Part shown: positions 49,814 to 64,000 of the stretch, in pieces | Position numbering within the stretch: the first letter of the stretch is position 1 | How the letters are laid out: every line of letters starts with the position of its first letter | From: Bradyrhizobium sp. WBAH42 | GTDB taxonomy: Bacteria > Pseudomonadota > Alphaproteobacteria > Rhizobiales > Xanthobacteraceae | Direction of reading: 5' to 3' | DNA: 64,000 bases | NCBI RefSeq assembly: GCF_024585265.1 | Contig: NZ_CP036533.1 | Coordinates: 4,597,001 to 4,661,000 of the forward strand | Translations under genes and position numbers: made by a program | The notes under the pieces: model-generated | What the model was told of the DNA's origin: nothing | Seen by the model: the letters and a program-made list of their open reading frames with translations, nothing else | Database searches by the model: none

Positions 49814-50269
49814 TTACGGATAAGGCGTGCCGTCCTTGTGCAGAAAGCGGCCGTCGGATGCCGGGCTCATCATGTCGATGTCGGAGCACGTGATGAGGTC
49901 GCCTGGCGAGCGCGAGCCGATCTCGAGGTAGACCGCGGTGGCGTCCGAGCGGTTGATCATGTGATGGCCGTTGCCGCTGGCCTTGGGGAAGGCGGCGCAA
50001 TCGCCGGCGCGCAGCACGGTTTCGCCGCCATCCTCGATCAGCGTCACTTCGCCTTCGAGAATGTAGACGAACTCGTCCTCGTGCGAATGCCAATGCCGCT
50101 GGCTCGACCAGCCGCCCGGCGGCAGGCGCATCAGATTGACGCCGAAATCCGACAGGCCGCCGGCATCGCCGAGCCGCTTGCGAATGCGCTCGGCGCAAGG
50201 CGCGCTGAAGGGCGCCGGATAGCCGGAGCCCTTGCGGGCCGGCACTTTGGCGACGTCGATCTTTGGCAT
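49814..50269 (-). CDS. Cupin domain protein
   Basis: A 151-residue cupin with a complete metal site: HWHSHEDEFVYILEGE (motif 1, two His and Glu) and FPKASGNGHHMINRSD (motif 2 His). Similar small cupins in alphaproteobacteria are annotated only as cupin proteins; a dioxygenase, isomerase or sensor role is possible. The start at 50269 has GGAGTCCCCT before it. Divergent from the antitoxin gene at 50355. Confidence 0.85.
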   Translation of the reverse strand: MPKIDVAKVPARKGSGYPAPFSAPCAERIRKRLGDAGGLSDFGVNLMRLPPGGWSSQRHWHSHEDEFVYILEGEVTLIEDGGETVLRAGDCAAFPKASGNGHHMINRSDATAVYLEIGSRSPGDLITCSDIDMMSPASDGRFLHKDGTPYP

Positions 50270-50325
50270 GAGGGGACTCCAATCGGTTACCGAGGTCGGC
50301 GCATTCGCGAACATCTTGCGATGTG

Positions 50326-50345
50326 TTACATAAGGGCGTATGTAA
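50326..50345. promoter_or_regulatory. Operator of second toxin-antitoxin pair
   Basis: TTACATA-AGGGCG-TATGTAA, perfect 7-bp arms, ending 9 bp before the antitoxin start and in the divergent gap with the cupin gene. Confidence 0.6.
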
Positions 50346-50354
50346 GTCAGCATC

Positions 50355-50642
50355 ATGGCCCATATCAGCATCCGCGATCTACAGAAGATTTCCGGTGAAG
50401 CCATTGGTGCATTGCCCGGCCCGACGGCGGTGAAATCGGGGGAGCGAACGGTCGGGCTGCTCATCCCGCTCAAGGCGACCGATCCGGAGCGCTTGGCTGC
50501 CGTGCTGGCGCGCGCGGAGCGGCTGGCCAAAGGGCGCGACGCGGCCGCGGACGATGCCGCATTGGCCGAGTTCGGCGAGGTCGATCCGGTCGATTGGTCG
50601 ATTGCTGCAGTGAAGGCCCTGACGCGCAAGCGGAAGACGTGA
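50355..50642 (+). CDS. Probable antitoxin of a PIN-domain pair
   Basis: A 95-residue protein. The start MAHISIRDLQKISGEAIGAL then GERTVGLLIPLK resembles short Phd/prevent-host-death folds, followed by an acidic helical C-terminus (AADDAALAEFGEVDPVDWS) that could bind the toxin. The toxin gene begins at the GTGA overlap. A palindrome lies just upstream. Confidence 0.75.
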   Translation: MAHISIRDLQKISGEAIGALPGPTAVKSGERTVGLLIPLKATDPERLAAVLARAERLAKGRDAAADDAALAEFGEVDPVDWSIAAVKALTRKRKT

Positions 50643-51070
50643 GACCACCGTCGGCAACGATCGTCATCGATGCGGCCATTCTGGTCGCCGCTGTTCGCGG
50701 TCGAAGTTCCGGGGCGCTTTTGGCCGCCGCGGAGAAGGTGGTCTTCGTGACCACGGACCGTGTCGTCCAGGAGGCACGCCGGCGCATCGCGCTCGGCATG
50801 CAGCGCCCCGAACTGCTCGATGTGCTCGATGACCTCGCCGAGCTGTTGACGATCGTTCCCGTTGCGTCGCTGGAGCCGATCATCGCCCGGTGCGAGGAGA
50901 CCCTTCGCGATGCCGTGCCGAGCCGCAATGGATCGGTGCGCGATGCCCACGTGCTCGCGCTCGCGTGGAGCGTCGATGGCGATGTTTGGACCACCGATCG
51001 CGACTTCGCAGGAATCGGCGTGGCAACGTGGTCGACGCCCAATCTCGTGCGTGGTCTTGGCGAGATCTGA
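50639..51070 (+). CDS. PIN-domain protein, probable toxin
   Basis: A 143-residue PIN nuclease with GTG start overlapping the antitoxin stop by 4 bp. Acidic residues in TIVIDAAILVAAVRG, DRVVQEARRRI, SVRDAHVLALA and VWTTDRDFAGIG give the four-residue PIN site. It should be an RNase held by the upstream antitoxin. It differs in subgroup from the VapC at 45234. Confidence 0.85.
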   Translation: MRPPSATIVIDAAILVAAVRGRSSGALLAAAEKVVFVTTDRVVQEARRRIALGMQRPELLDVLDDLAELLTIVPVASLEPIIARCEETLRDAVPSRNGSVRDAHVLALAWSVDGDVWTTDRDFAGIGVATWSTPNLVRGLGEI

Positions 51071-51349
51071 GCATTGAACCGCACAGGATGGTGGCCCAGC
51101 GATGCTCTCGAATGGGGGGATGATGCCGTTATGCCGGTGTTTTGCCCGACGGGTCAACCCGCGCCTCGACCTTGCAAATGGCCGTCCTCGTAAGTCATTG
51201 ATCCCGCTGGCGCCGGCTACTGTGCATGGGGTTGTTTTTCGAGTTTTGTTGGCAGGTCACGAAAGCGTGCGGCAAATGCGACGTCGCCCTGTCGGCCGGC
51301 GCAGTTCCCATTCGTCTTCCAGGCGAGACAGAGCTGACGGGAGACTGAA

Positions 51350-52573
51350 ATGACTGCTTCCAACTATCGCTGGGTGATCGTCGCCGCCGGCGGCGTGCTT
51401 GGCTGCGTCGCGATCGGCGGCATGTTTTCGCTGCCGGTGTTCCTGCAGCCGATCACCAAGGACACCGGCTGGTCGGTGACCGGCATCTCCAGCGCGATGA
51501 CGATCGGCTTTCTGGCGATGGCCTTCACTAGCATGGCCTGGGGCACGCTGACGGACCGGTTCGGGCCGCTGCCGGTGGTGCTGACCGGATCGACCGTGCT
51601 GGCGCTCAGCCTGTTCGCGGCGAGCCTCGCCACCTCTCTGATCGTGTTCCAGATCGTGTTCGGCCTGTTGGTCGGCGCCGCCTGCGCGGCGATCTTCGCG
51701 CCGATGATGGCGACCGTCACCGGCTGGTTCGATACCAATCGCGGCCTCGCGGTGTCGCTGGTCTCGGCCGGCATGGGCATGGCGCCGATGACGATGTCGC
51801 CGCTGGCGGCCTGGCTCGTCTCCGGCCACGACTGGCGCACCTCGATGCAGATCATTGCGCTCGTGGTCGGCGCCATCATGATCCCGGTCTCGTTCCTGGT
51901 GCGCCGTCCGCCGGCGCTCGCGCAAGGCCCGGCCGCGCCCGTGGGCGAAGCCGCCGCCGGACAAAACGAGATGTCGATGGGTGAGGCGCTGCGTTCGCCG
52001 CAATTCCTGATCCTGCTCGCCACCAACTTCTTCTGCTGCGCGACGCATTCCGGCCCGATCATCCACACCGTCAGCTATGCCGTGAGCTGCGGCATCCCGC
52101 TGGTCGCGGCGGTGACGATCTACAGCATCGAGGGGTTTGCCGGCCTCGGCGGGCGCATCGCCTTCGGCCTGATGGGCGACCGCTTCGGCGCCAAGCGCGT
52201 GCTGGTCTCGGGCCTGCTGCTGCAGGCCTTCGGTGCGCTCGCCTATGTCTTCGCGCAACAGCTCACGACGTTCTATGCGGTCGGCGCCATCTTCGGCTTC
52301 ATCTATGCCGGCACCATGCCGCTCTACGCCGTGCTCATCCGCGAGAACTTCCCGCTCAAGATGATGGGCACGGTGATCGGCGGCACGGCGATGGCCGGCA
52401 GCCTCGGCATGGCGACCGGCCCGCTCGCCGGCGGCCTGATCTATGATGCCTTCTCCAGCTATGCCTGGCTCTACATCGCCTCCTGGGCGATGGGCCTCGG
52501 TGCCTTCCTGATGGCGATGACGTTCCGCCCGTTCGCAAAGCCGCAAGGCGAGGTGGCGCCGGCGGCGGCGTGA
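51350..52573 (+). CDS. MFS transporter, OFA/monocarboxylate-like
   Basis: A 407-residue 12-helix carrier. Motif A is WGTLTDRFGPLP (loop 2-3), and the mirror loop in the second half is GLMGDRFGAKRVL. Helix 1 reads VIVAAGGVLGCVAIGGMFSL. The TNFFCCATHSGPIIHTVSY helix 7 is typical of OFA-type exchangers of organic anions. Substrate unknown. The gene stands alone after a 279-bp gap in which I see no gene, only the motif TTGCCCGACGGGTCAA. Confidence 0.88.
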   Translation: MTASNYRWVIVAAGGVLGCVAIGGMFSLPVFLQPITKDTGWSVTGISSAMTIGFLAMAFTSMAWGTLTDRFGPLPVVLTGSTVLALSLFAASLATSLIVFQIVFGLLVGAACAAIFAPMMATVTGWFDTNRGLAVSLVSAGMGMAPMTMSPLAAWLVSGHDWRTSMQIIALVVGAIMIPVSFLVRRPPALAQGPAAPVGEAAAGQNEMSMGEALRSPQFLILLATNFFCCATHSGPIIHTVSYAVSCGIPLVAAVTIYSIEGFAGLGGRIAFGLMGDRFGAKRVLVSGLLLQAFGALAYVFAQQLTTFYAVGAIFGFIYAGTMPLYAVLIRENFPLKMMGTVIGGTAMAGSLGMATGPLAGGLIYDAFSSYAWLYIASWAMGLGAFLMAMTFRPFAKPQGEVAPAAA

Positions 52574-52594
52574 ATTCGCGATCGAGGCGCGGCG

Positions 52595-52981
52595 TCAGAG
52601 CTGCGCCTCGATCGCGGCCTTGTCGATGACCGACCAGACCCGACGGATCTTTCCGTCGCGAAATTCGTAGAACACGTTTTCGCAGAAGGACACGCGCCGC
52701 CCGTTGACGGCAAGACCAAGGAACGGTCCAGCCGGCGTGCAGTCAAACTTCAATCGGGCGGCGATGCGGGGAGGATCTGAGATCAGCATCTCGATGTGGA
52801 ACTGCAGGTCGGGTATCTGCCGAACATCCTGCTCCAGCATCGCGCGATAGCCCTCAAGCCCAAGCGGCCGCGCGTTGTGAGCGACCTCATCATGCACGAA
52901 TTGTCCGAGTGCCGGCCAATCCCGCCGATTCAGGCAGGTGATGTAGGCGCGGTAGATGTCGGCGAGGTCGTCTCTCGTCAT
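52595..52981 (-). CDS. NTF2-like/SnoaL ester-cyclase family protein
   Basis: A 128-residue SnoaL-like protein: LADIYRAYITCLNRRDWPAL, EGYRAMLEQDVRQIPDLQF and GLAVNGRRVSFCENVFYEF are the standard blocks of polyketide-cyclase-type small proteins. Reaction unknown. ATG at 52981 is used; a longer in-frame read upstream would overlap the MarR-GNAT gene's control region. Convergent with the MFS gene, 21 bp apart. Confidence 0.82.
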   Translation of the reverse strand: MTRDDLADIYRAYITCLNRRDWPALGQFVHDEVAHNARPLGLEGYRAMLEQDVRQIPDLQFHIEMLISDPPRIAARLKFDCTPAGPFLGLAVNGRRVSFCENVFYEFRDGKIRRVWSVIDKAAIEAQL

Positions 52982-53033
52982 ATCGAAGCTCCCACTTCGA
53001 CCTAACGCGCGAGGATCGCGAACCGGTCCGGCA

Positions 53034-53906
53034 TCAGAGCCGTTTCTCGAAGAACAGGTCCGGGTAAGGATCGTCATTGAAGCGGGGAATCTCGCGCCAG
53101 CCGCTGGTGCGGTAGAGCTGGGCGGCCTCGGGCAGCGCGCTGTTGGTGTCGAGCCGCAGCAGCGTGATGCCGAGCTCGCGTGCTGCGGCCTCGGTCGCGT
53201 CCATCAGGCGCCGGCCGAGCCGCAGCCCGCGCGCGGCCGGGACGACCCAGAGCCGCTTGATCTCGGCGTAGCCGTGATCGGTTCCCTTCAAGCCCACGCA
53301 GCCGATCGGCAGCGTGTCCGACATCGCGACGATGAAGGTGCCGCGCGGTCGGCGCATGTCCTTGGCGTCGGGATCGCGCGACAGCGAGACGTCAAAGCCT
53401 TGTTTGAAGCGGCGGCCGAGTTCGGCATAGTACTCGCCGAGGCAATAGCGTGCCGGTTCGGACTGAGGGTCGATCTCATCCAGCGAAACGCGCTCTCGCG
53501 TCAATGCGGATGCGATCAGGTCCATCGCCGCGAGCAAGGCCTCGGCTTGCGAATTCTGAGCGAGGAAGCCTTCGGCCTGCGCGTTCGAGAGCGCCTCGTA
53601 GGCTGCGAACTCGCGCCGGCCCGTGCGCGTCAGCCGCGCCACGCGGCGGCGGGCGTCGTCCGCATGCGCGGTGGTCTCGACCAATCCTTCGTCCTCGAGG
53701 CTGCGGAGCAGCCGGCTCATCAGCCCGGAATCGAGCCCGAGATAGTCCCGGATCTCGGCGACGTCCGAACGCCCGTGCCCGATCGCATTGAGCACGCGCG
53801 CCGCGCCGAGCGGCCGACCGCGCCCGAGAAACGACGTATCGAGTGCTCCGACGGCCGAGGTGACGGCGCGGTTGAAGCGGCGAACGCGGGAGACGGCGTC
53901 GAGCAT
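53034..53906 (-). CDS. MarR-GNAT fusion: winged helix plus acetyltransferase
   Basis: A 290-residue two-domain protein. Residues 1-125 are a MarR winged helix (VAEIRDYLGLDSGLMSRLLR, RRRVARLTRTGRREF). Residues 150-290 are a GNAT acetyltransferase (EIKRLWVVPAARGLRLGRRL with the acetyl-CoA P-loop RGLRLG, then LLRLDTNSALPEAAQLYRTS). It is probably a regulator that also acetylates a small molecule. Its own operator (53911-53926) lies 4 bp before its start. Confidence 0.92.
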   Translation of the reverse strand: MLDAVSRVRRFNRAVTSAVGALDTSFLGRGRPLGAARVLNAIGHGRSDVAEIRDYLGLDSGLMSRLLRSLEDEGLVETTAHADDARRRVARLTRTGRREFAAYEALSNAQAEGFLAQNSQAEALLAAMDLIASALTRERVSLDEIDPQSEPARYCLGEYYAELGRRFKQGFDVSLSRDPDAKDMRRPRGTFIVAMSDTLPIGCVGLKGTDHGYAEIKRLWVVPAARGLRLGRRLMDATEAAARELGITLLRLDTNSALPEAAQLYRTSGWREIPRFNDDPYPDLFFEKRL

Positions 53907-53910
53907 GATG

Positions 53911-53926
53911 TCTGACTTTAGTCAGA
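53911..53926. promoter_or_regulatory. MarR-type operator upstream of the MarR-GNAT gene
   Basis: TCTGACT-TT-AGTCAGA, perfect 7-bp arms with 2-bp centre, adjacent to the start codon; likely autoregulatory. Confidence 0.65.
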
Positions 53927-53960
53927 TATCACGCGCATGTCAATCGGGGGAGCGCCGGCG

Positions 53961-54374
53961 TCACTTCGCCGGCGTCAGCAGCGGCCTGTCCTTGGCGACG
54001 ATATAGGTGGCAAGTTCGCTGGCGGTCTCACCGCCGACATTCTTCGCCGCATGCACCGCGCCGGCAGGGATGAACAGCACGTCGCCGGCTCTCAGCGTGA
54101 CCGGCGGCTTGCCCTCGACGTCGTATTCGATCGCACCCGCCAGCACGTAGATGATCTCTTCGCCCGGATGGGTGTGCCGGCGGAACGCCACGCCCGGGGC
54201 AAGGTCGACGCGCACCTGCACAGCCTCGCGCCCGGGCGCGCTGAGATCGTGGCGCTGGAGGTCGGTGCGCGTGACGCCGGCCTGCGCCGCCGCGGCCGGC
54301 AGTGTGAACAGGTTTGCCGCGAGCAGCACCGCGCTCGACAGCACGCGGAGGATTCGCAGACGACGATGGCTCAT
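53961..54374 (-). CDS. Secreted cupin domain protein
   Basis: A 137-residue cupin with an N-terminal signal peptide (RILRVLSSAVLLAANLFTLP, cut near AAAQA), so it is exported. Motif 1 is FRRHTHPGEEIIYVLAGAIE with two His and Glu, and motif 2 is LFIPAGAVHAAKN. Periplasmic single-cupin proteins of this type are common in rhizobia, with unknown roles. It follows the ohr gene on the same strand, 77 bp apart. Confidence 0.85.
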   Translation of the reverse strand: MSHRRLRILRVLSSAVLLAANLFTLPAAAAQAGVTRTDLQRHDLSAPGREAVQVRVDLAPGVAFRRHTHPGEEIIYVLAGAIEYDVEGKPPVTLRAGDVLFIPAGAVHAAKNVGGETASELATYIVAKDRPLLTPAK

Positions 54375-54451
54375 GGTCGGCTCCTTTTGGTCACGAGATT
54401 GTCCGCGCCGCGCGGGCCCGGCCGATGCCGGCCGGTCCGCGTCGTGGCGCT

Positions 54452-54853
54452 TCAGACGAGGGTGGTGGTCACCTCGATGTTGCCGTGCACCGCCTTGGAG
54501 TAGGGGCAGATGCCGTGTGCGGCCTCGATCAGTTCCTGCGCCACCGCGCGATCGACGCCGGGAACGCTGACGTCGAGACGGGCACGCAGGAAGAAGGCGC
54601 CGCCGGCGTTGTTCAGGTCGATCGCGGTGTCGACCGACGGCTCGCTCGGCAGCTTGACCTTGCGCTGGGCAGCGGCGAGCCCGAGCGCGCCGAGATAGCA
54701 GGCCGACCAGGCGGCGGCGAACAGGTTTTCGGCCGCCGGGTGCGGCTGGGCCAGCTTGACGTTCAGGAATCCGTCACTGGAGTGCGCGGTGCCGTCGACG
54801 CCCGAGGTGACGTGGGTCTTGCCGGTGAAGAGAACCTTTGCAGCGGAGGTCAT
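54452..54853 (-). CDS. ohr: Organic hydroperoxide resistance protein
   Basis: A 133-residue OsmC/Ohr peroxidase that reduces organic hydroperoxides using lipoyl-protein electrons. The peroxidatic Cys52 is in WSACYLGAL and the resolving Cys116 in GICPYSKAV, with Arg and Glu in the surrounding loops. Start at 54853 begins the conserved VLFTGKTHVT. Divergent from ohrR across two inverted repeats. Confidence 0.95.
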   Translation of the reverse strand: MTSAAKVLFTGKTHVTSGVDGTAHSSDGFLNVKLAQPHPAAENLFAAAWSACYLGALGLAAAQRKVKLPSEPSVDTAIDLNNAGGAFFLRARLDVSVPGVDRAVAQELIEAAHGICPYSKAVHGNIEVTTTLV

Positions 54854-54884
54854 GGTCGTATCCTTCGGTTGAATTATTAATCGT

Positions 54885-54901
54885 ATCCGATCTAATCGGA
54901 T
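54885..54901. promoter_or_regulatory. OhrR operator 1 (ohr side)
   Basis: ATCCGAT-CTA-ATCGGAT, perfect 7-bp arms, 31 bp before the ohr start. Confidence 0.8.
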
Positions 54902-54942
54902 GCGTATGGAAATATACTCGCCGCACCCACCGGTCAAGCTCT

Positions 54943-54957
54943 TCCGATTTAATCGGA
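54943..54957. promoter_or_regulatory. OhrR operator 2 (ohrR side)
   Basis: TCCGAT-TTA-ATCGGA, perfect 6-bp arms in TTCCGATTTAATCGGATACG, 44 bp before the ohrR start; same core as operator 1. Confidence 0.8.
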
Positions 54958-55001
54958 TACGATTTATATTGGTCGGCAGATCACGAATTGCGGAGGTTCC
55001 C

Positions 55002-55460
55002 GTGGCCCGTTCCCCCAAATCAGCCGGCAAAGACCGGAAATTGTCGAATTTCCTCTGCTTTGCGATCTATTCGGCCAATCTCGCTTTCGGCCGGGCCTAT
55101 AAGCCCCTGCTGGACAAGGTCGGCCTGACCTATACCCAGTACATCGTCCTGGTGGCGCTGTCGGACGAGGATGAGCAGACCGTCAGCACACTGGGCGAGA
55201 AGCTGTTCCTGGAATCCAACACACTGACTCCGATCCTGAAGAAGCTCGAGCAGATGGGGCTGATCAAGCGCCACCGCGATCCTGCCGACGAGCGGCAGGT
55301 GCGCCTGAGCCTGACGCCCGCGGGGCGCAAGCTGATCGAGCAGGATCTCGGCGGGGCGCTGATTGAGGCGACAGGTCTTGGCGACGATTTTCCGGTGGTG
55401 CAGAAGACGGTGAGCAGATTGCGCGACAATCTGCTGCGTGCGACCAAGGCCGATGACTAG
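55002..55460 (+). CDS. ohrR: Peroxide-sensing MarR regulator OhrR
   Basis: A 152-residue MarR protein with GTG start and GGAGG 5 bp before it. The reactive Cys19 sits in NFLCFAIYSANLAFGRAYKP, the OhrR sensor helix; the winged helix is LGEKLFLESNTLTPILKKLE then DPADERQVRLSLT. Oxidation of Cys19 releases DNA and turns on ohr. The two inverted repeats between ohr and ohrR are its sites. Confidence 0.94.
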   Translation: MARSPKSAGKDRKLSNFLCFAIYSANLAFGRAYKPLLDKVGLTYTQYIVLVALSDEDEQTVSTLGEKLFLESNTLTPILKKLEQMGLIKRHRDPADERQVRLSLTPAGRKLIEQDLGGALIEATGLGDDFPVVQKTVSRLRDNLLRATKADD

Positions 55461-55540
55461 CACATCGAGACAGGACAGATCGGGAGTCCCCGCCGCGGCA
55501 CGCCCGTCGCCGAGGCCGGGCCCCATTACGGGAGGACATC

Positions 55541-56284
55541 GTGAGCAACGCGAGTGAAGCGGCGGACCGGTTGATCGCAGCCCGAAGCAAAGGCGGATCG
55601 GTCGGCTGGCGTGACATCCTTCCTTCGGATCGTGCGGGCGCCTACGCCATCCAGGATGCCACGCTTGCCCGGCTCGGTCCGCTCGGCGGCTGGAAGGTCG
55701 GGGCGTCGGGCCCGGATGCCGAGCCCGTCTGCGCGCCGCTGCCGGCATCCGGCCTGCTTGCCTCCGGCGCGCGGCTCGGTCCTGAATTCCGCCTGCGGGG
55801 TGTCGAGGTGGAGGTTGCGCTCCGGGTCGGGCGCGCGCTCGCGGCTGACGACGCCGCGTTGCCCGATCGCGAGCTGGCACGCGCCTTCGACGCCGTCTAT
55901 CCCGCCATCGAGATCGTCGAGACGCGGCTCGAGGATTGGACGAATAGTGCCGCCCTGGCCCAGCTCGCGGATTTGCAGAGCCACGGCGCGTTGCTGATCG
56001 GAGCAGCCTCGACAGTCAGCCCTGCTGCCATCGATCTGAGGGCCGTCGAGGCGGATCTCTCGATCGGTGAAGACATCAGCCCTCGAACCACTGGCGGCAA
56101 TCCGGCAGGAGACGTCTGGCGTCTGCTGCGCTGGCTCGTCCGTCATTGTGCGGACCGGGGTCTGCCTCTCTTGCCGGGCCAGATCGTCACGACCGGTTCG
56201 TGCATCGGCATGATCTTCGCAGAAGCGGGGACCAGCGCCCGTGCACGCCTTGTGGGTTTCGGCGAAGTTACTGTCGATTTCTGA
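55541..56284 (+). CDS. 2-keto-4-pentenoate hydratase/fumarylacetoacetase-family protein
   Basis: A 247-residue protein of the hydratase/decarboxylase group (MhpD/TesE-like). RGVEVEVALRVGRAL holds the metal-binding Glu pair, PAIEIVETRLEDWTN the third acidic site, and PGQIVTTGSCIGMIFAE is the typical C-terminal block. It would hydrate 2-oxopent-4-enoate-type products of aromatic breakdown, but no ring-cleavage genes are adjacent. GTG start with GGAGG at 55531. Confidence 0.85.
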   Translation: MSNASEAADRLIAARSKGGSVGWRDILPSDRAGAYAIQDATLARLGPLGGWKVGASGPDAEPVCAPLPASGLLASGARLGPEFRLRGVEVEVALRVGRALAADDAALPDRELARAFDAVYPAIEIVETRLEDWTNSAALAQLADLQSHGALLIGAASTVSPAAIDLRAVEADLSIGEDISPRTTGGNPAGDVWRLLRWLVRHCADRGLPLLPGQIVTTGSCIGMIFAEAGTSARARLVGFGEVTVDF

Positions 56285-56337
56285 GCAATGAGGCTTGCTT
56301 CGCTTCGGCGAGCCGCGACGCGCTTTCCGCATCACGC

Positions 56338-57519
56338 TCAGCTTTGGGGGCGGATCAACTTGATGTCCTGATCGGCTGCCCACGCGGCGACATCCTCGCG
56401 CTTCAGCGCGGTCGCCATCAGATCCGGAAACTGATCCGGCGTGCAGGCGAAGACGGGGATGCCGAGACTTGCGACCTTTGCCGACAACGCAGGATCATAG
56501 GAGGGATGCCCTGTGTCGGTCAGTGCCAGCAGCACGATCACATTGACTCCGCGCGTTGCGAGCCGCGCCAGCCGGTCGACCAGCTCATTTGCATTGCCGC
56601 CCTCATAGAGGTCGGTGATCAGGACCAGATGCGCTTTCGACGGCCGTTCGATGCGCTCCTCGCAATAGGCGACGGCGCGGTTGATGTCGGTGCCACCGCC
56701 TAGCTGGACGCCGAACAGCACCTCGACGGGATCGGCGAGCTCCTCCGTCAGGTCGACGATCGCCGTGTCGAAACAGACGAGCTTGGTTGCGACCACCGGA
56801 AGCGAAGCCATCACCGCCGCGAAGATCGAGGCATAGACGACGGAGGTTGCCATCGACCCCGATTGGTCGACACACAGGATCACCTCGTCGAGATCGACGA
56901 TGCGGCGCTGCTGGCGCAGGAAACCGATCAGCCGTTCGGGCACGATCGTGCGATGCTCCGCCTGATAGTGGCGCAGATTGGCCTTGATGGTGCGCGGCCA
57001 GTCGATATCGGCAAAGCGTGGGCGACTGGTGCGCAGCGAGCGGTTGAGGGCGCCGCCGACCGCATCCGCGGTGCGCCGCTCTAGCCGCTCCATCAGCTCG
57101 GCCACCACCTTGGCGATCACAGTGCGGGCGGTGTCCTTAGTCTTCTCAGGCATCACGCCGCGCAGCGCGACCAGATCGGCGATGAGGCTGACATCGGCCT
57201 CGACGGTCGCGAGGAATTCGGGCTCAACCAGCATCTGGCGCAGGCCCTTGCGCTCGAAGGCATCCTTCTGGATCACCTGGACCACCGGCGCGGGGAAGAA
57301 CTCCCTGATGTCCCCGAGCCATTTGGCGACGCGCGGTGCCGAGCCGCCGAGCCCGCCGCGGCCTTTCTTCGGGGCTTCGTCGCCGTCGCCGTAGAGCGCC
57401 GTCAACGCCTCGGACATGCGGCGATCGCTGGCGGACAGAGCAGGGCCTTTCTCGGCGCCTTCGGGGTCGACGCCGAGGGCGAGCGTCCAGCGGCGGCTGC
57501 GTTCATCGGCCTCGCTCAT
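56338..57519 (-). CDS. VWA domain (CoxE-like) protein of MoxR-VWA cassette
   Basis: A 393-residue cytoplasmic protein. An N-terminal helical region (1-205) precedes a von Willebrand A domain with a full MIDAS: Asp218, Ser220 and Ser222 in CVDQSGSMATS, Thr277 in GGGTDINRA and Asp303 in LITDLYEGG. VWA proteins are the metal-dependent adaptors of MoxR AAA+ ATPases. Its start overlaps the DUF5682 stop (ATGA). Last gene of the five-gene operon, with the ATPase two genes upstream. It probably presents substrate to the MoxR ring; the substrate is unknown. Confidence 0.9.
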   Translation of the reverse strand: MSEADERSRRWTLALGVDPEGAEKGPALSASDRRMSEALTALYGDGDEAPKKGRGGLGGSAPRVAKWLGDIREFFPAPVVQVIQKDAFERKGLRQMLVEPEFLATVEADVSLIADLVALRGVMPEKTKDTARTVIAKVVAELMERLERRTADAVGGALNRSLRTSRPRFADIDWPRTIKANLRHYQAEHRTIVPERLIGFLRQQRRIVDLDEVILCVDQSGSMATSVVYASIFAAVMASLPVVATKLVCFDTAIVDLTEELADPVEVLFGVQLGGGTDINRAVAYCEERIERPSKAHLVLITDLYEGGNANELVDRLARLATRGVNVIVLLALTDTGHPSYDPALSAKVASLGIPVFACTPDQFPDLMATALKREDVAAWAADQDIKLIRPQS

Positions 57520-59742
57520 CGCGCCGCTCCCGCCTTGACAAGTTCGAGTACGCGGACCTGATGCGCCGGCCAGATCTCGTTTGCGCCGGCGATCAGCCGA
57601 TAGCCTTTGGCAGCAGCGGTGCTTCGCGCGAAGAGCGCATCCATCAGCCGCCGGCGCTCGGTTCGGTCCAGGGCCGAGAAGACGCGGCGGAACAAGGGCA
57701 GGCTGGCGGTGAAGGCCTCCTCGTCCAGCGTCATCAACCAGGCATCGACCGCGCCCCGTAGCGCCGCATCGTGGATCAGCCGTTGGCCGGCGCCCTCGAA
57801 GAAGCCTTCGAAGAATCCCGCCGCTTCCGCGACCGGCGTTCCGGGCGAGAGCATTCGGGTCAGCAGGTCCGCGGCATGATCGGCTGTCAGCAGCTCGGCC
57901 TCGTAGAGCAGCCGCGCGGCGGTGCCGGCGATCAGGCGGGTCGCGTGATCGTCATTCATCAGTGCCCGCAGCGCATCGCGCCAGCCGGCCACGATGTCGG
58001 CCTCGATCTGGGCGAGCTGGATCGCGGCGTCGGCCGCAAGGAGCGCACCGCGCAGCTTGGCTGCCGCCGGCGCATCGAGATTGCGCGCAGCATAGGGCAA
58101 GGCAAGTGCCGCCTGCACCACGATACGCGGCATCAGCGCCGTCAGATGCTCGACCGTGCCGGTGCGCGCCTCGCCATAGCGCAGGATATCGGCCATCGGC
58201 GGCAGTGCGGCAAGGAGCGACGGGCCGTCGCTCGTCAGTGCCGCCTTCGTCTCCAGCGCGGCGATGCCGAACTCGGTGGCGCGCGCCAGGTCGGCGATCA
58301 TGGCATTGCGCACCAGGCTCGCCAGCGGGCCAAGCTCGGCTTCCTTGCCCATCGCTTCCATCAGGCGCCCGCCCGCGGCTTCCGCGATGGTCGAACCGTA
58401 GAGCAGATTTTCCACCAGCCTGACCGCGAATTCCGGCTCCCAGCGCAATTGCCAGTTCTCGCGGAACGTCCCGCGGCTGCGCCCCGCATCCGTCAACCGT
58501 CCCCAGGGCACGTCGAGCGCGTTCAGCCGGTGCAGTAGCGTGGAACGCATCAAGCCGCTTTCGCTGCGCAGATCGATTGTGAGCGCCCGCTCCAGCGCCT
58601 CCGGCTTGAGGCGCGTCGCTTTCTGCTGACGCTGGAGATCTTCGAGCAGCGGCGCGAGCGGTGTCGATGCTGGGATTGCACCGACGCCCGCGCCGATCAG
58701 GAGTTCGGCCGAAATGTCGTCCCACATGGCGCGCTCGCCGTTGCAGAGGCAGGCGATCGCCGCCTCGCGCAGCTCTGCAAAGCCCGGCGCGGGCCGGTCG
58801 CGCAGCGCCGCGAGTGCCGTCCCCAGCCGCTGCGCCTCGATCACCGAGGCGGTGGATACGAAATGGCCGCGATCGCGCAGCGCGCGCGTCACCTTGGCAA
58901 GCCACTCGGCAGCGCGATCGCGGTCGCGCGTGTCCCAGACATGTGCGCACCATCCCGGCGCCACGACGCCCGCGCCATAGCCGCTGGCGCGCGCCAGCCG
59001 CGGCGCGGTCCATGGCGCCCAGGTCGCCTTGATCTTGGTCCTGGGCCGGCCCTTGAGCAATTCGCGATCCGCAGCAAGGCTGCGGCGCTCGGCGAGCGCC
59101 GGCACGTGCCAGGCGCCGCAGACGACCGCAACGGCGCCGTCGCATTCTTTGGCCGCCTTCGCGATCTCGATCCGCATATGGGGCTTCGCGCGCGGCCTCG
59201 CGCGCCGACAGTGATTTTTCGTCCGCACGCAGCGCGGTCATCGCATCGGCAACGGCCGTGAAGATCGGGCCCGTTGCGGGATTCTCCTCGATGACGTCGG
59301 ACCACCAGGATTCGCCATCGTCATAGCCTGCGGCAGTTGCGAGCGCGCCGATCGGATCGTGGCTGACCGGGTCGGCCTCGGCCCTTGCTGCGATCTCCTC
59401 CGCGATATCGCCATCGCTGGCACCCAGCCGGTCCGATGCCGGCAGGTCGATGAAGCGCAGGGTCGCGCCGTGACGCACCGCCCAGCGTGCGGCCTGGTAT
59501 TCCGGCGAATAATCGGCAAAGGGAAAGAAGCTGGCATTCGCCGGATTGTCCTCGGCATAGGTGAGGAGGGCCACCGGCGTTACCATGTCGGGATCGGCGA
59601 GCATCGGCAGCAGCTCGGATGCATCCGCCGGGCCTTCGATCAGCACCGCCACCGGTTTCAGCGCGTCGAGCGCTTCCACCAGCCGCCGCGCAGAGCCGGG
59701 GCCGTGATGCCGGATGCCGAAGAGAGAGACCTGGCCCGCCAT
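57516..59742 (-). pseudogene. DUF5682 family protein, split by a one-base frameshift
   Basis: About 741 residues if repaired. The N-terminal part starts at 59742 (SLFGIRHHGPGSARRLVEAL, AVLIEGPADASELLPML, LRFIDLPASD) and loses frame after EKSLSAREAAREA. The rest continues one frame over as HMRIEIAKAAKECDGAVAVV to the stop at 57516. Dropping one base from the run GGGG at 59180-59183 joins them exactly (AREA-HMRIEIAK). The HHG and E-G-P pattern looks like the TraB/ChaN/EreA-type fold. Either a recent mutation, a sequencing error in a homopolymer, or frameshifting. The C-terminal part is long and helical. It overlaps the VWA gene and follows the MoxR gene by 16 bp. Confidence 0.85.
59180..59183 (-). 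other. Frameshift site in DUF5682 gene
   Basis: GGGG on the + strand (CCCC in the gene sense, GAAGCCCCATATG). With three C residues the two halves read through as E-A-H-M-R. The short run makes a sequencing slip possible but not certain. Confidence 0.8.
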
Positions 59743-59758
59743 CGCTCGCGCCGCTCCG

Positions 59759-60835
59759 TCAGATCAAGTCGGTCAGCGACGCGTAATAGCCTTCGAAGCC
59801 GCGTCGCTTCTTCAGCACGGTCTCGAGATATTCGCCGAGTACGGCCGTGTCCTGCACCGGGTCCTTGACCACCGCGCCGATCATGTTGCTGGCGAGCGTT
59901 TCGGGCGTCAGCTTGCCGTCATTGAAGAAGGTCGCCTGGCTGATCCCGCCGATCATCACCGCGATTGCCTCGGCCGTTGACAAACCCCCCGAGGGCGACT
60001 TCAGCGCGACCTTGCCGTCCTCGGTCGAGCCCGAGCGCAGCTCGCGGAAGATCGACACCACCCGCGCCACCTCGTCGGCGACGTTCTTCGGCGCCGGCAG
60101 GTCGAGAGTCTGCGCCATCTCGCCGACGCGCTTGACGATGATCGCCACTTCCTCCTCGGCGCTGTCTGGCAAGGGCAGCACGACGACGTTGAAGCGGCGC
60201 TTGAGCGCCGAGGACAGTTCATTGACGCCCTTGTCGCGGTTGTTCGCGGTCGCGATGATGTTGAAGCCGCGCTGGGCGTACACGGCGGTGTTGAGCTCGG
60301 GGATTGGCATCATCTTTTCCGACAGCACCGTGATCAGCGTGTCCTGCACGTCGCTGCCCATTCGCGTCAGCTCTTCGAAACGGCAAAGCTTGCCGCTCTC
60401 CATCGCGCGCATCAGCGGAGTAGGCACCAGGGCTTCGCGGCGCGGACCGTGTGCGAGCAATTGAGCATAATTCCAGCCGTAGCGGATCTGGTTCTCGTCA
60501 GTGCCAGCCGTGCACTGGATCACCAGGGTGGAGTCGCCGGTGATGCCCGCGGCGAGGTGCTCGGAGACCCATGACTTCGCCGTGCCCGGTACGCCCAGCA
60601 GCAACAGCGCGCGATCGGTCGCGAGCGTCGCAACGGCGGTCTCGATCAGACGCCGGTCTCCGACATACTTGGGCGTGATCACCGTGCCATCAACCGCCTT
60701 GCCGCCCATCAGATAGGTTACGACCTGCCGCGGTGCGAGTGCCCAGCCCGGTGGGCGATGCTGATCGCCCGTCGCAAGCGCCTTCAGCTCCGCCGCATAG
60801 CTCTCCTCGGCGGGCAGGCGCAGTTTCTCGCTCAT
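59759..60835 (-). CDS. MoxR-type AAA+ ATPase
   Basis: A 358-residue AAA+ ATPase of the MoxR group. Walker A is GVPGTAKS (81-88), Walker B-like LCRFEELTRMG (150-160), sensor 1 ATANNRD (195-201) and the Arg finger region ALKRRFN (210-216). The helix-2 insert QIRYGWNYAQLLAHGPRREA is typical of MoxR. Such ring ATPases work with VWA proteins to mature or remodel enzymes and complexes. Its start overlaps the DUF5691 stop by 4 bp. Central motor of the five-gene cassette. Confidence 0.93.
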   Translation of the reverse strand: MSEKLRLPAEESYAAELKALATGDQHRPPGWALAPRQVVTYLMGGKAVDGTVITPKYVGDRRLIETAVATLATDRALLLLGVPGTAKSWVSEHLAAGITGDSTLVIQCTAGTDENQIRYGWNYAQLLAHGPRREALVPTPLMRAMESGKLCRFEELTRMGSDVQDTLITVLSEKMMPIPELNTAVYAQRGFNIIATANNRDKGVNELSSALKRRFNVVVLPLPDSAEEEVAIIVKRVGEMAQTLDLPAPKNVADEVARVVSIFRELRSGSTEDGKVALKSPSGGLSTAEAIAVMIGGISQATFFNDGKLTPETLASNMIGAVVKDPVQDTAVLGEYLETVLKKRRGFEGYYASLTDLI

Positions 60836-62262
60836 GGTTTTGCTCCCTTGTCGTCCAACGCGGCGTTGAGCCGCAGCATGTCGAGGCGCGGGTCGCCTTG
60901 CAGCAGGCCTGCACCGGCTAGACCATTCAGCGCGCCTCGCGCGCCCTCGCGTGAGGTAATCAGGCCGAGCGCATGAAATTCCTCAGCGTCGTCGGAGGGC
61001 CTCGCATCGTCCCGCTGGAGCGCCGCAAGCAGCGTCTTGCCCGCAGGTGCGGACAGTGGATCTCGGAGCCGCGCAGCCGTTCCCGCGATCAGTTGCGCCA
61101 GCTCGAAACGGATGCCGCGCGCGTTCAAGGCCGCCTCGGCGTGCCTTGCGCGCTCGGCGGGCGCAAGCCGGGCAGCCAGCGATATGATGAGGCCAGTCGC
61201 ATCGTGTTCGCTGACCGCGTCGGCCGCTTGCGAGACTTGCGCATCGGCTCCCGTGGCCACGATCAGATCGACCAGCGCCGCATCGGCGGTCTGGTCTGTG
61301 TTCCAGTCCCAGGCCGCGATCAGCTCCTGCGGTGCAAGGCCCAGCGCGCCGGCGAACGATGTCAGGTCGGCGCCATCGAACAGCGCCTTTCGGCGCAGCG
61401 ATTGTGCCGCCGTCTTGAGAGGCTCGGCCTGGACCACGCGCGAGCGGCGCAACAGGCCCTTGGTCTTTACTGCGAAAAATCCGGCGAGCTCCGCCGTGTC
61501 CTCGCCCGCAGCAGGGCCGCGGCCAAGGCGTGCGAGCAGCGAGGTCGCAAGCGCCTTGACCTTGGGGGCACGATCGTTCGCCGCGACGCCTTCGAGAAAG
61601 GCGAGATCCTCATCGGACAGCCGTTCCGACAGCAAAGACAACAGGCGCCACCGCGTGTCGGCCGTCTCACCGGCAAGCTTAGCTTCCAGCACTGCGCGCG
61701 CCGCAGAGGGATCGCGCCTCCTGAGCTCGGCCAAGGCGACCTTGCGCGCTGCCGGCCAGAAATCGTCCCAATTCTCGGCGCTGAGTCGGTCGTCCGTCTG
61801 CCGCCGTGTGGCGCTATCGGACGCTGCAATCGCCGCCCAGTCGCGCCACCCGGCGTAGAGATCGGGCACATCGTCATCATCGGCTTGGGGCATCCAGTCG
61901 GCAGGATGCATCGTCCAGCCGCGCGCCGCGAGGAAGTGGACGAGGTCGGTCTTGACCTTGCCCTGCTTCTTCGTGGTCAGGATCCGGCGCACCAGCGGAC
62001 GCAAGGTCTCGGGCACAGTCGGCAATGCAAGCGCGGGAATGTCGGGCAGAATGCGAAGCGATGAGGAGGGCTCCATCGTCAACGCGGTGCCGAGAAACTG
62101 ACCCGAAAGTGCAAGCAGCCGCAACTCGGCCTCGACCGCATCGTCGCCGAGCTCGGCACGCCAGAACGAGGCTGCTGGCGCGGCTGGTGATCCCATGGTC
62201 CAGCGCGTGAGCACCGCACCCATCGCGTCGTAGATCGTCTCGGCCTTGATGACATCACTCAT
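60832..62262 (-). CDS. DUF5691 family protein
   Basis: A 476-residue helical protein: AELRLLALSGQFLGTALTME, LVRRILTTKKQGKVKTDLVH, LPDIPALALPTVPETLRP, then repeated short helices (SLLSERLSDEDLAFLEG, APKVKALATSLLARLGRG) that look like HEAT-type repeats. Known only as DUF5691, a domain seen beside SWIM, MoxR, DUF5682 and VWA genes. It may be a scaffold. Its start overlaps the SWIM gene stop by 8 bp. Confidence 0.85.
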   Translation of the reverse strand: MSDVIKAETIYDAMGAVLTRWTMGSPAAPAASFWRAELGDDAVEAELRLLALSGQFLGTALTMEPSSSLRILPDIPALALPTVPETLRPLVRRILTTKKQGKVKTDLVHFLAARGWTMHPADWMPQADDDDVPDLYAGWRDWAAIAASDSATRRQTDDRLSAENWDDFWPAARKVALAELRRRDPSAARAVLEAKLAGETADTRWRLLSLLSERLSDEDLAFLEGVAANDRAPKVKALATSLLARLGRGPAAGEDTAELAGFFAVKTKGLLRRSRVVQAEPLKTAAQSLRRKALFDGADLTSFAGALGLAPQELIAAWDWNTDQTADAALVDLIVATGADAQVSQAADAVSEHDATGLIISLAARLAPAERARHAEAALNARGIRFELAQLIAGTAARLRDPLSAPAGKTLLAALQRDDARPSDDAEEFHALGLITSREGARGALNGLAGAGLLQGDPRLDMLRLNAALDDKGAKP

Positions 62263-63643
62263 CGCTGCCGATCCGTCCCCAGGAGGTCTGTGCGGCCAGG
62301 ATCGTGAGCCGGTTGCCCGACCAGATCGCGGCTGTGCGCATCAGCGCTGTTCCGACCAGCAGGCCCTCCGTGTTGCCGGCGACGGGCAGCGTGGCGGTGC
62401 CGTCGGCGGCGCGCCACCAGGCACCCCCTGTCTCGTCGCGCGCGATCCGCCCCTGCGGCAGCAGCAGCGGCATTTCGATCACCCACGGCTCTGCGAGCAG
62501 GGGGCGTGTCAAGGCGTCGCCGAGCGCGGTGTCTGCAGCCGGCCATTCCAAGGCAGGTGTCTCTTCGCTCGCATCGCGCCGCACGAGCAGGGCGCGCAGC
62601 GGCTGCTGCGACGGATAGAAGACGAGCTCAGCCTGGAATCGGTCGCCGGGTGTGAAGACCGAGCCGCGTCGTCCGGCACTCGCCGGGAAGAAGTCGAGCA
62701 GCATCGCAAAGCGCGGACCGTTCGGAGCCAGATTGAGCAGCCAGGTCGTTTGCGACACCAATCCGTCGCGGCGCGTCTGCACCTGCTCGGCCAGGACCTC
62801 CCAGCGCGCATCGACCCGCAGCGCTTGCGGATCGCTCAGCACGGTCTCGCGCGTTTCCGATGCGGCGACGGCGCGCCTGATCTCGGCATCGCGCGGCGCG
62901 GCACGGAAGGCGCGCGCGAGCAGGACCAGCTTGCCGAGCTCGACCACGGCGGCACGTGGCCGGTCGCCTGCGGCAAGTGCGAGCAGGCGGGACGGCAGTT
63001 CGTCGATCCGGCCGGCGAGCACCGCGGCCTTGCCGTCGACCAGCCGTGCCGCGATCCTCCGGCATCGCGAGGTGGCATCGTCGATGAAGCCCGACAATCC
63101 CAGCCGCAATTGATCGCCGATCCATTGCTCGAGCGCATCCAGCGCGTCGAGAATGGCCCGCTCGGTCTCCTCGCTGCGTCTGGCGGCTTGGGCCTCGCGC
63201 CGCGCTATATCCTTTGGATCCTCGGCCACTTCGGGCTCGGCCGCGCGCGCGGCGCGCAAATCCTTGTCGCCGGCGGGCGGCGCATTGCTCCCGGGCTTTG
63301 CCGCGGACGTGCCGCGCCGGCGGCCCAGCCAATCGCTGACCCAGGCCGGTGTTTCCGCGGGCACGAACGGCACGATCGCTTCTGCATTCAGCCACAACAG
63401 GCCGAGCACGTGCTTGCAGGGGAATTTGCGCGAAGGGCAGGTGCACTTGTTGCCGAGATCGCGCAAGTCGGCCATCACGCGGTACGGATTGGCGCCGGAG
63501 CCCGCGCATTCGCCCCAGATCAGCGCGCCATCCTGGCTTGCGCCGACGCCGGACCATTTGGCGGGCTTGGCGAGGCCAGCCGCCGCCTTGAGCGAGGATT
63601 GATCGGTAGCGAGTTGCTCGACCGCTTTCAGATCAATCGCCAC
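62255..63643 (-). CDS. SWIM zinc-finger domain protein
   Basis: A 462-residue protein. The SWIM finger CTCPSRKFPCKH has the CxC...CxH ligands Cys67, Cys69, Cys76 and His78. The rest is helical and proline/alanine-rich in the linker (RRRGTSAAKPGSNAPPAGDK), then a long coiled or repeat-like region and a beta-rich end. SWIM fingers bind nucleic acid or protein. GTG at 63643 (VAIDLKAVEQLATDQSSLK) is chosen because the conserved region starts there; an ATG 46 codons upstream is less likely. First gene of the five-gene operon. Confidence 0.85.
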   Translation of the reverse strand: MAIDLKAVEQLATDQSSLKAAAGLAKPAKWSGVGASQDGALIWGECAGSGANPYRVMADLRDLGNKCTCPSRKFPCKHVLGLLWLNAEAIVPFVPAETPAWVSDWLGRRRGTSAAKPGSNAPPAGDKDLRAARAAEPEVAEDPKDIARREAQAARRSEETERAILDALDALEQWIGDQLRLGLSGFIDDATSRCRRIAARLVDGKAAVLAGRIDELPSRLLALAAGDRPRAAVVELGKLVLLARAFRAAPRDAEIRRAVAASETRETVLSDPQALRVDARWEVLAEQVQTRRDGLVSQTTWLLNLAPNGPRFAMLLDFFPASAGRRGSVFTPGDRFQAELVFYPSQQPLRALLVRRDASEETPALEWPAADTALGDALTRPLLAEPWVIEMPLLLPQGRIARDETGGAWWRAADGTATLPVAGNTEGLLVGTALMRTAAIWSGNRLTILAAQTSWGRIGSDE

Positions 63644-63993
63644 GCCGCTGTCCCAAATCGAATCCAGGAGCGGCAGTATATCGGTACAGGATGAAAGCTC
63701 AATGTCGCCGCGAGCGATCCAGGTGCTGCACGCGGGGATGGTGGTGTCGCTCGGCTTCCGCCAAGTCGAGCTCAAGCTCATGGCGGACCTTCCGCGAGAG
63801 CTTTGCCGCGATCAGCGCATGCGCCTGCATGAGTTAGGTCGTGAGCTCGGCGTCCGGCAGGGTGCTGTTGCTCGCATGGCAACAGCGAAGTTGATGTGCT
63901 GCCGCTCTTTGTGAGTTGTGCCGGAGCCGCGGACCGCTACCATGCGCCGGCTCTACTGGAACTCGAGAGCCAAGCACAATGAGCGGAGGCGAC
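63644..63993. other. Gap upstream of the five-gene operon, no clear gene
   Basis: This 350-bp stretch should contain the operon promoter on the minus strand. A 70-codon frame on the plus strand (63702-63914) reads MSPRAIQVLHAGMVVSLG and has no recognisable family, so I do not call it a gene. No inverted repeat stands out. Confidence 0.5.
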
Positions 63994-64000
63994 ATGAGCG
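63994..64000 (+). CDS. Possible start of a new gene at the window edge
   Basis: ATG at 63994 preceded by GCGGAGGC (63982-63989), a good ribosome site. Only two codons and part of a third are visible. An earlier ATG at 63979 is an alternative. Confidence 0.3.

Follow-up and report, generated by a model that had tools for sequence, protein, structure and literature searches.

The 64,000-nucleotide stretch of the Bradyrhizobium sp. WBAH42 genome analyzed here (the window; contig NZ_CP036533.1, positions 4,597,001 to 4,661,000) carries a compact cassette of five genes, encoding a SWIM zinc-finger protein, a DUF5691 protein, a MoxR-type AAA+ ATPase, a DUF5682 protein and a VWA protein (Table 1). 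An earlier note, made from the sequence alone, had recognized these five families on one strand, and Pfam confirms all of them, all on the minus strand. The spacings it gave also agree with the coordinates: the SWIM and DUF5691 genes overlap by 8 bp (62255-62262) and DUF5691 and MoxR by 4 bp (60832-60835), a 16-bp gap (59743-59758) separates MoxR from DUF5682, and DUF5682 and VWA overlap by 4 bp (57516-57519). Co-expression in a fixed ratio, which the note listed as seen, is not seen but can be inferred from the gene order. The SWIM start agrees with those of relatives and lies immediately downstream of a sigma-70-like pattern; a scan of the region found two such patterns against 0.4 expected. 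Comparison by eye places TTGAGCTTTC also upstream of the cassette copies L005, L006 and L007, and TATACT also upstream of L003 and L005. An Rfam scan of window positions 50000-64000 gave no match.

Table 1. Features of the cassette (positions in the window)
Feature	Position	Strand	Evidence
SWIM zinc-finger gene	62255..63643	-	Pfam SWIM E 1.2e-6; GTG start 63643; longer open frame to 63781
DUF5691 gene	60832..62262	-	Pfam DUF5691 E 3.8e-18, 66.7 bits
MoxR AAA+ ATPase gene	59759..60835	-	Pfam AAA_5 E 2.3e-37
DUF5682 gene	57516..59742	-	Pfam DUF5682 E 9.4e-153 and 1.1e-51, two reading frames
VWA (CoxE-like) gene	56338..57519	-	Pfam VWA_CoxE (PF05762) E 1.6e-52, 178.6 bits
Sigma-70-like promoter TTGAGC-16-TATACT	63675..63702	-	Promoter-pattern scan, ahead of the cassette

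The picture of five plain genes holds for four intact frames but not for DUF5682, which open frames and Pfam place in two frames joined at about 59,180 by a one-base slip; a search of the whole WBAH42 genome likewise recovered it as two pieces. The gene is in a single frame at this position in nine Bradyrhizobium loci, which represent eight distinct genomes, as L005 and L086 are one contig. Comparison with four of these relatives indicates purifying selection on both sides of the slip (nonsynonymous rate dN 0.007-0.080, synonymous rate dS 0.40-0.78), and as dN is far below dS on both sides, the slip is, to judge from these rates, either very recent or a sequencing error. One-base slips are a frequent assembly error. 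Could the break be real, with the remaining four genes perhaps to follow? Such decay would concern WBAH42 only and is compatible with the other readings discussed below. The halves do lie in different frames although the assembly is one contig and 99.98% complete, but the low dN of both halves and the intact state of the other four frames make decay somewhat doubtful. A programmed frameshift was rejected: two other loci (L070, L037) have broken DUF5682 frames, but near the C-terminus.

Conservation of the five genes as one unit

A scan for the MoxR protein in GTDB, with one genome per species, gave at least 589 pattern matches, of which at least 567 were confirmed. The best 80 loci, which represent the nearer side of a larger family, were taken, and their genes were called with profiles built from the window proteins and from those loci. 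All five genes are present in 75 of these 80 MoxR-anchored loci, 74 with the same order and one permuted (L035). The order SWIM-DUF5691-MoxR-DUF5682-VWA is found in single frames in 72 loci and with split frames in two (L037, L070); the five incomplete cassettes (L025, L049, L052, L053, L063) are all cut by contig ends. According to record titles, and with many metagenome-assembled genomes among them, the hosts are Alpha-, Beta- and Gammaproteobacteria, Planctomycetota, Acidobacteriota, Verrucomicrobiota, Desulfobacterota, Myxococcota and, as two cut loci, Actinomycetota. Spacing was counted in loci L003-L091, near-copies included, with start codons chosen for minimal gaps, which favors tight spacing: SWIM and DUF5691 are separated by at most 11 bp in 77/78 pairs, DUF5691 and MoxR by at most 31 bp in 82/84, MoxR and DUF5682 by at most 24 bp in 85/88, and DUF5682 and VWA by at most 2 bp in 84/86.

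The earlier note had proposed searching for the five families together across genomes, with chance co-occurrence or independent phylogenies speaking against a single system. The set is kept as a unit well beyond chance, and independent phylogenies are not indicated: in each of the ten protein pairs the distances are correlated (0.80-0.94), values that partly reflect shared organismal history, and none of 500 permutations was as high (43 loci, thinned at 93% MoxR identity from the 71 that passed length limits). Of 249 Pseudomonadota genomes, with WBAH42 among them, 12 have DUF5682 and six have DUF5691 above cut-off; all six are among the 12, with the two genes adjacent by coordinates, an overlap expected by chance at about 6e-8 (own genome excluded, relatedness ignored). 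A seventh DUF5691 match (G124), below cut-off, is in a genome without DUF5682. The five genes are thus one conserved, co-inherited unit.

Relation to the E. coli yeh genes and predicted protein features

The E. coli K-12 record has yehI (DUF4132), yehK, yehL, yehM, yehP and yehQ annotated in that order, with yehF and a yehH pseudogene also upstream of yehL. Like the cassette, yehL-yehM-yehP-yehQ has MoxR, DUF5682, VWA and SWIM genes in one same-strand row, and the DUF5682 motif set described below is common to both; unlike the cassette, the yeh locus has DUF4132 (YehI) upstream in place of DUF5691, and SWIM comes last, not first. A profile search of an E. coli control genome found no DUF5691 match. 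We call the DUF5691-bearing cassette type I and the yehLMPQ-like architecture yeh type. The window MoxR is 41.5% identical to YehL and 41.5-46.4% identical to seven yeh-type MoxR proteins, versus only 24% for RavA (a local match of 101 residues) and about 24% for two matching MoxR/AAA proteins of its own genome. In a MoxR tree, 11 type I rows and seven yeh-type rows fall each on one side of a branch (100/100), eight ungrouped rows being left uncounted; long-branch rows are not firmly placed, and two joined an open fork holding both types. On this sequence evidence the window MoxR is a sister branch of YehL, so that the YehL branch can be said to have two architectures, the five-gene cassette being the second. 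The earlier note had made no mention of this link to yehLMPQ. PMC3893208 recognizes a YehL subfamily within MoxR.

The yeh-type sample comprised K-12 and ten more loci (L161-L163, L167-L173) with lower-scoring DUF5682. MoxR is found in all ten and VWA in eight (not L171 or L173). DUF4132 is found in nine (L161-L163, L167-L170, L172, L173), upstream of MoxR in eight and behind DUF5682 in L173; the L171 sequence stops 350 bp after DUF5682, and its single scanned long upstream open reading frame (ORF) matched nothing. For SWIM, L161 and YehQ pass the Pfam cut-off, L162, L163, L168 and L172 match only below it, and L167 has SWIM by motif; the scanned L169 protein gave no SWIM match, and no SWIM protein was recognized in L170, L171 or L173. 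The DUF4132 proteins of L170 and L173 each carry a WGR domain. Profiles of the type I SWIM and DUF5691 proteins found nothing in the ten loci. DUF5691 thus appears mostly to occupy the slot held by DUF4132 in yeh-type loci. A comparison of the two did not support homology (score 19.8 versus a maximum of 21.4 in 80 shuffles). It is of note that one genome (G277) holds both architectures, with DUF5682 and DUF5691 on contig C24 and a yeh-type set with DUF4132 on C32.

DUF5682 residues H16, E40, R189, G213 and H216 (numbering of L003) are present in 98/98 rows, yeh-type copies included; G13 is invariant in a 47-row alignment and substituted in some yeh-type copies. We take this His/Glu/Arg/GxxH set to be the motif pattern of the TIKI/TraB/ChaN hydrolases, as defined in part by PMC6254334. 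GxxH motifs and an invariant Glu and Arg at corresponding positions liken DUF5682 to the TIKI/TraB/ChaN/Ere superfamily; a long extra helical region sets it apart, as does its GIRH sequence, which lacks the initial Glu of the ExH motif of Ere. Against TraB and ChaN profiles the DUF5682 N-terminus scored above all 150 of 150 shuffles each, albeit at weak E-values. No Pfam family of the TIKI/TraB/ChaN type matched any of 47 DUF5682 proteins at E 10, and fold searches gave no TIKI match, their lists being filled by the helical C-terminus and hence uninformative on the N-domain. The AlphaFold2 model of the L003 relative has a mean confidence (predicted local distance difference test, pLDDT) of 90, and models and profiles together predict a TIKI-like N-domain followed by a helical C-terminus.

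The SWIM protein has C89, C91, C98 and H100 invariant in 42/42 relatives. From the AlphaFold2 model of the L003 relative (pLDDT 89) we predict a zinc finger near the N-terminus, a helical middle and one or more C-terminal beta domains of OB type; fold matches suggest an SSB/RPA-like OB fold, perhaps two. The TIKI/TraB/ChaN-type motif set in DUF5682 and the predicted OB fold in the SWIM protein are new here. They lend support, as predictions only, to the earlier suggestions that DUF5682 is an enzyme and that the SWIM protein contacts nucleic acid. DUF5691 evolves fast (mean column identity 32%) and has no HEAT match in Pfam; it can reasonably be presumed to be a helical scaffold. The other two proteins are much more constant, with mean column identities of 77% for MoxR and 68% for VWA. 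In MoxR, G81, P83-G84-T85-A86-K87-S88 (Walker A) and N198 are invariant in 24 relatives, and in VWA the residues D218, S220, S222, D278 and D303 of the metal ion-dependent adhesion site (MIDAS) are invariant in 32. A sequence search of solved structures gave no credible relative of DUF5682, SWIM, DUF5691 or VWA.

Distribution and neighborhood

The distribution of the cassette is patchy and partly horizontal. The window MoxR is 90% identical to that of Novosphingobium versus 75-77% to those of Mesorhizobium, a member of its own order (best 80 loci), which points to transfer. Besides WBAH42, 35 Bradyrhizobium genomes yielded six with type I and three with the yeh type; DUF5682 was found in none of 24 genomes of the same order that were searched. 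In five of nine distinct type I loci of Bradyrhizobium (L004, L005 = L158, L155, L157, L164) the cassette lies between a gene for a thiamine pyrophosphate (TPP) enzyme and a MarR/GNAT-like gene, markers named from sequence by eye; three others (L003, L159, L160) have only the GNAT-like marker within the stretch, and L156 has neither. A hydratase gene tried as a flank marker was not conserved and was dropped. Sixteen Bradyrhizobium stretches selected by the GNAT-like gene, two of them ended early by contig ends, show no VWA, MoxR or SWIM gene; the genus search covered 12 of these genomes and detected DUF5682 in none of them. Both markers are present in 12 of the 16, and two of these stretches have an empty site, with only 89 and 100 bp between the markers. 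Where the cassette is absent from this Bradyrhizobium site, 30 of 38 ORFs were scanned; they are mixed metabolic and transport genes together with two helicases of SNF2 type, which resemble helicase models of PADLOC (47 families, e.g. DpdE and ZorD).

In E. coli the type I cassette is found in 30 of 5426 genomes, at 96-100% query coverage, in one place each and always on the chromosome. The copy of strain 2017-02-2CC lies between gltD and a PDDEXK nuclease gene (L092:18591-19703), beside nanQ; a PDDEXK nuclease gene is also near the cassette on a Hymenobacter radiodurans plasmid (L215:13158-14210). On a Deinococcus plasmid all five cassette genes are annotated. By annotation only, SWIM, DUF5691, the ATPase and DUF5682 in three pieces are present on the Hymenobacter plasmid, where no gene is named as VWA; a Rhizobium plasmid is annotated with the ATPase and VWA, and genes without a name fill the three remaining positions. 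A Streptomyces cadmiisoli plasmid (L213:7384-12926) has the core reordered as VWA-MoxR-DUF5682, with DUF5682 missing from the annotation table. A phage origin was rejected, since a search of viral contigs gave ten pattern matches and no confirmed one. Among 50,697 records, one unverified and unannotated 14-kb 'phage' scaffold, MT835988.1 (L214), has MoxR-DUF5682-VWA; it is probably bacterial DNA.

Do other genes travel with the cassette? The neighbor set consisted of 99 of the 112 nearest ORFs, from 64 of the 80 loci (16 Mesorhizobium loci excluded); these are stop-to-stop ORFs, some possibly spurious. No Pfam family occurs in more than two of the 99 proteins, and hence no sixth partner emerged. 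A BLAST single-linkage cluster of flank ORFs lies close to the cassette in 20 of the 80 loci, mostly of Mesorhizobium (e.g. L022:2614-3672). As a check for a defense island, PADLOC was run at E 1e-10: 50 models matched over the 99 neighbors, compared with 17 for 88 controls, of which 79 are ORFs beside TraB/ChaN genes and nine come from the window. These counts are of models, not proteins; they may lean toward an excess beside the cassette. Among the matches listed for neighbors no model is in more than two proteins. The five cassette proteins themselves gave no convincing PADLOC match; the ATPase alone had two weak ones, IetA (0.014) and REase_II (0.02). Regulation by the SOS response was rejected, with LexA-type boxes not enriched upstream: one in 75 loci versus 0.63 expected, and none in 75 for the gamma and actinobacterial patterns.

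Possible modes of action

What is observed is a conserved set of genes inherited together, with signatures of an ATPase and a VWA protein and an invariant motif set in DUF5682. Our tentative proposal, which we regard as possible, is that the five genes encode one ATP-driven remodeling-hydrolysis complex of the YehL branch, recruited by nucleic acid. That the proteins would form one complex, with nucleic acid as trigger and protein as substrate, is what we infer. The SWIM/OB protein would anchor the complex to nucleic acid that is single-stranded or exposed in another way, or to protein bound there, and DUF5691 would connect this arm with the core. The MoxR ring, partnered by the VWA protein with its MIDAS, would grip and remodel a client protein, which the TIKI/TraB-like site of DUF5682 (H16, E40, R189, H216) would cleave or otherwise hydrolyze. 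Against such a site, the hhalign E-values of the DUF5682 N-terminus are weak (0.008 for TraB, 0.0024 for ChaN). A broader version, that there is a widespread and unrecognized class of nucleic-acid-triggered AAA+ proteases with a MoxR-VWA motor, a TIKI-type DUF5682 blade and an exchangeable arm (SWIM/OB with DUF5691, or SWIM with DUF4132/WGR in the yeh type) that sets the site of action, we consider unlikely as a whole. The TIKI superfamily includes Wnt-cleaving and Ras-cleaving proteases, so a cytosolic, AAA+-coupled bacterial branch would, if real, be a novel way of using this fold.

MoxR and VWA could instead insert a metal or assist enzyme assembly, in the style of CoxD/CoxE, NorQ/NorD or RavA/ViaA, the other three proteins being client-specific adaptors without a nucleic-acid role. 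The cassette has the MoxR-VWA pairing of CoxD/CoxE and RavA/ViaA and a strongly matching CoxE-like VWA domain, but the 99 neighbors scanned with Pfam include no recurrent client enzyme. Moreover, no maturation pair is known to include an OB fold or a TIKI-like hydrolase, and SWIM, DUF5691 and DUF5682 partners are not known from CoxD/CoxE and RavA/ViaA. PMC3893208 does have known MoxR-VWA pairs working as maturation chaperones. In addition, molR, perhaps involved in molybdate metabolism (PMC8533742), stands beside yehI in the deletion list of E. coli DGF-298 (PMC10652928); this strain lacks the region from molR to yehQ and beyond, so the yeh region is dispensable under genome-reduction conditions. 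Taken together, such a maturation role is rather improbable.

A role in conflict with phages or plasmids, with SWIM/OB (or WGR in the yeh type) sensing invading nucleic acid and DUF5682 acting on a protein of the host or of the invader, would fit the patchy presence in Pseudomonadota and E. coli, the plasmid copies, the presence or absence at one Bradyrhizobium site and the larger number of PADLOC models on neighbors. Other MoxR-vWA systems have been proposed as conflict systems (PMC7159879 and PMC12839542). The ternary conflict systems (VMAP, iSTAND, FtsH; eLife 2020) have a MoxR and VWA core like the cassette, which, unlike them, is without VMAP, iSTAND, FtsH or variable effector domains (Pfam, five proteins, E 0.1); a bpMoxR match of MoxR below cut-off was the sole ternary-system-related one in the Pfam scan, and the words DUF5682 and YehM are not in the main text of that paper. 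The 50 PADLOC models may stem from few neighbors, the five proteins fall in no PADLOC family beyond the weak ATPase matches, and MoxR and VWA evolve slowly, with no swapped effector domain seen, in contrast to the ternary systems. We think a conflict role quite unlikely.

The nucleic-acid-recruited remodeling-hydrolysis complex has the merit that a likely active site and a likely nucleic-acid arm make five poorly described genes a testable machine, with a sister operon, yehLMPQ, in E. coli K-12 itself. In the literature searched, no function is given for yehLMPQ, two or more of these genes are named together only in genome reports, and DUF5682 and DUF5691 are not mentioned; subscription work on MoxR subfamilies lay outside this search, and the neighborhood picture is perhaps partly known there.

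A separate observation concerns WBAH42 beyond the window, about 6-8 kb upstream of the cassette (L154:16202-18880), where an RtcB-like ORF adjoins a TROVE/Ro60-like ORF, both recognized by eye. The latter carries a VWA-type DVSGSM motif, and the two look like an RNA-repair pair, which likewise couples a VWA protein to nucleic-acid repair.
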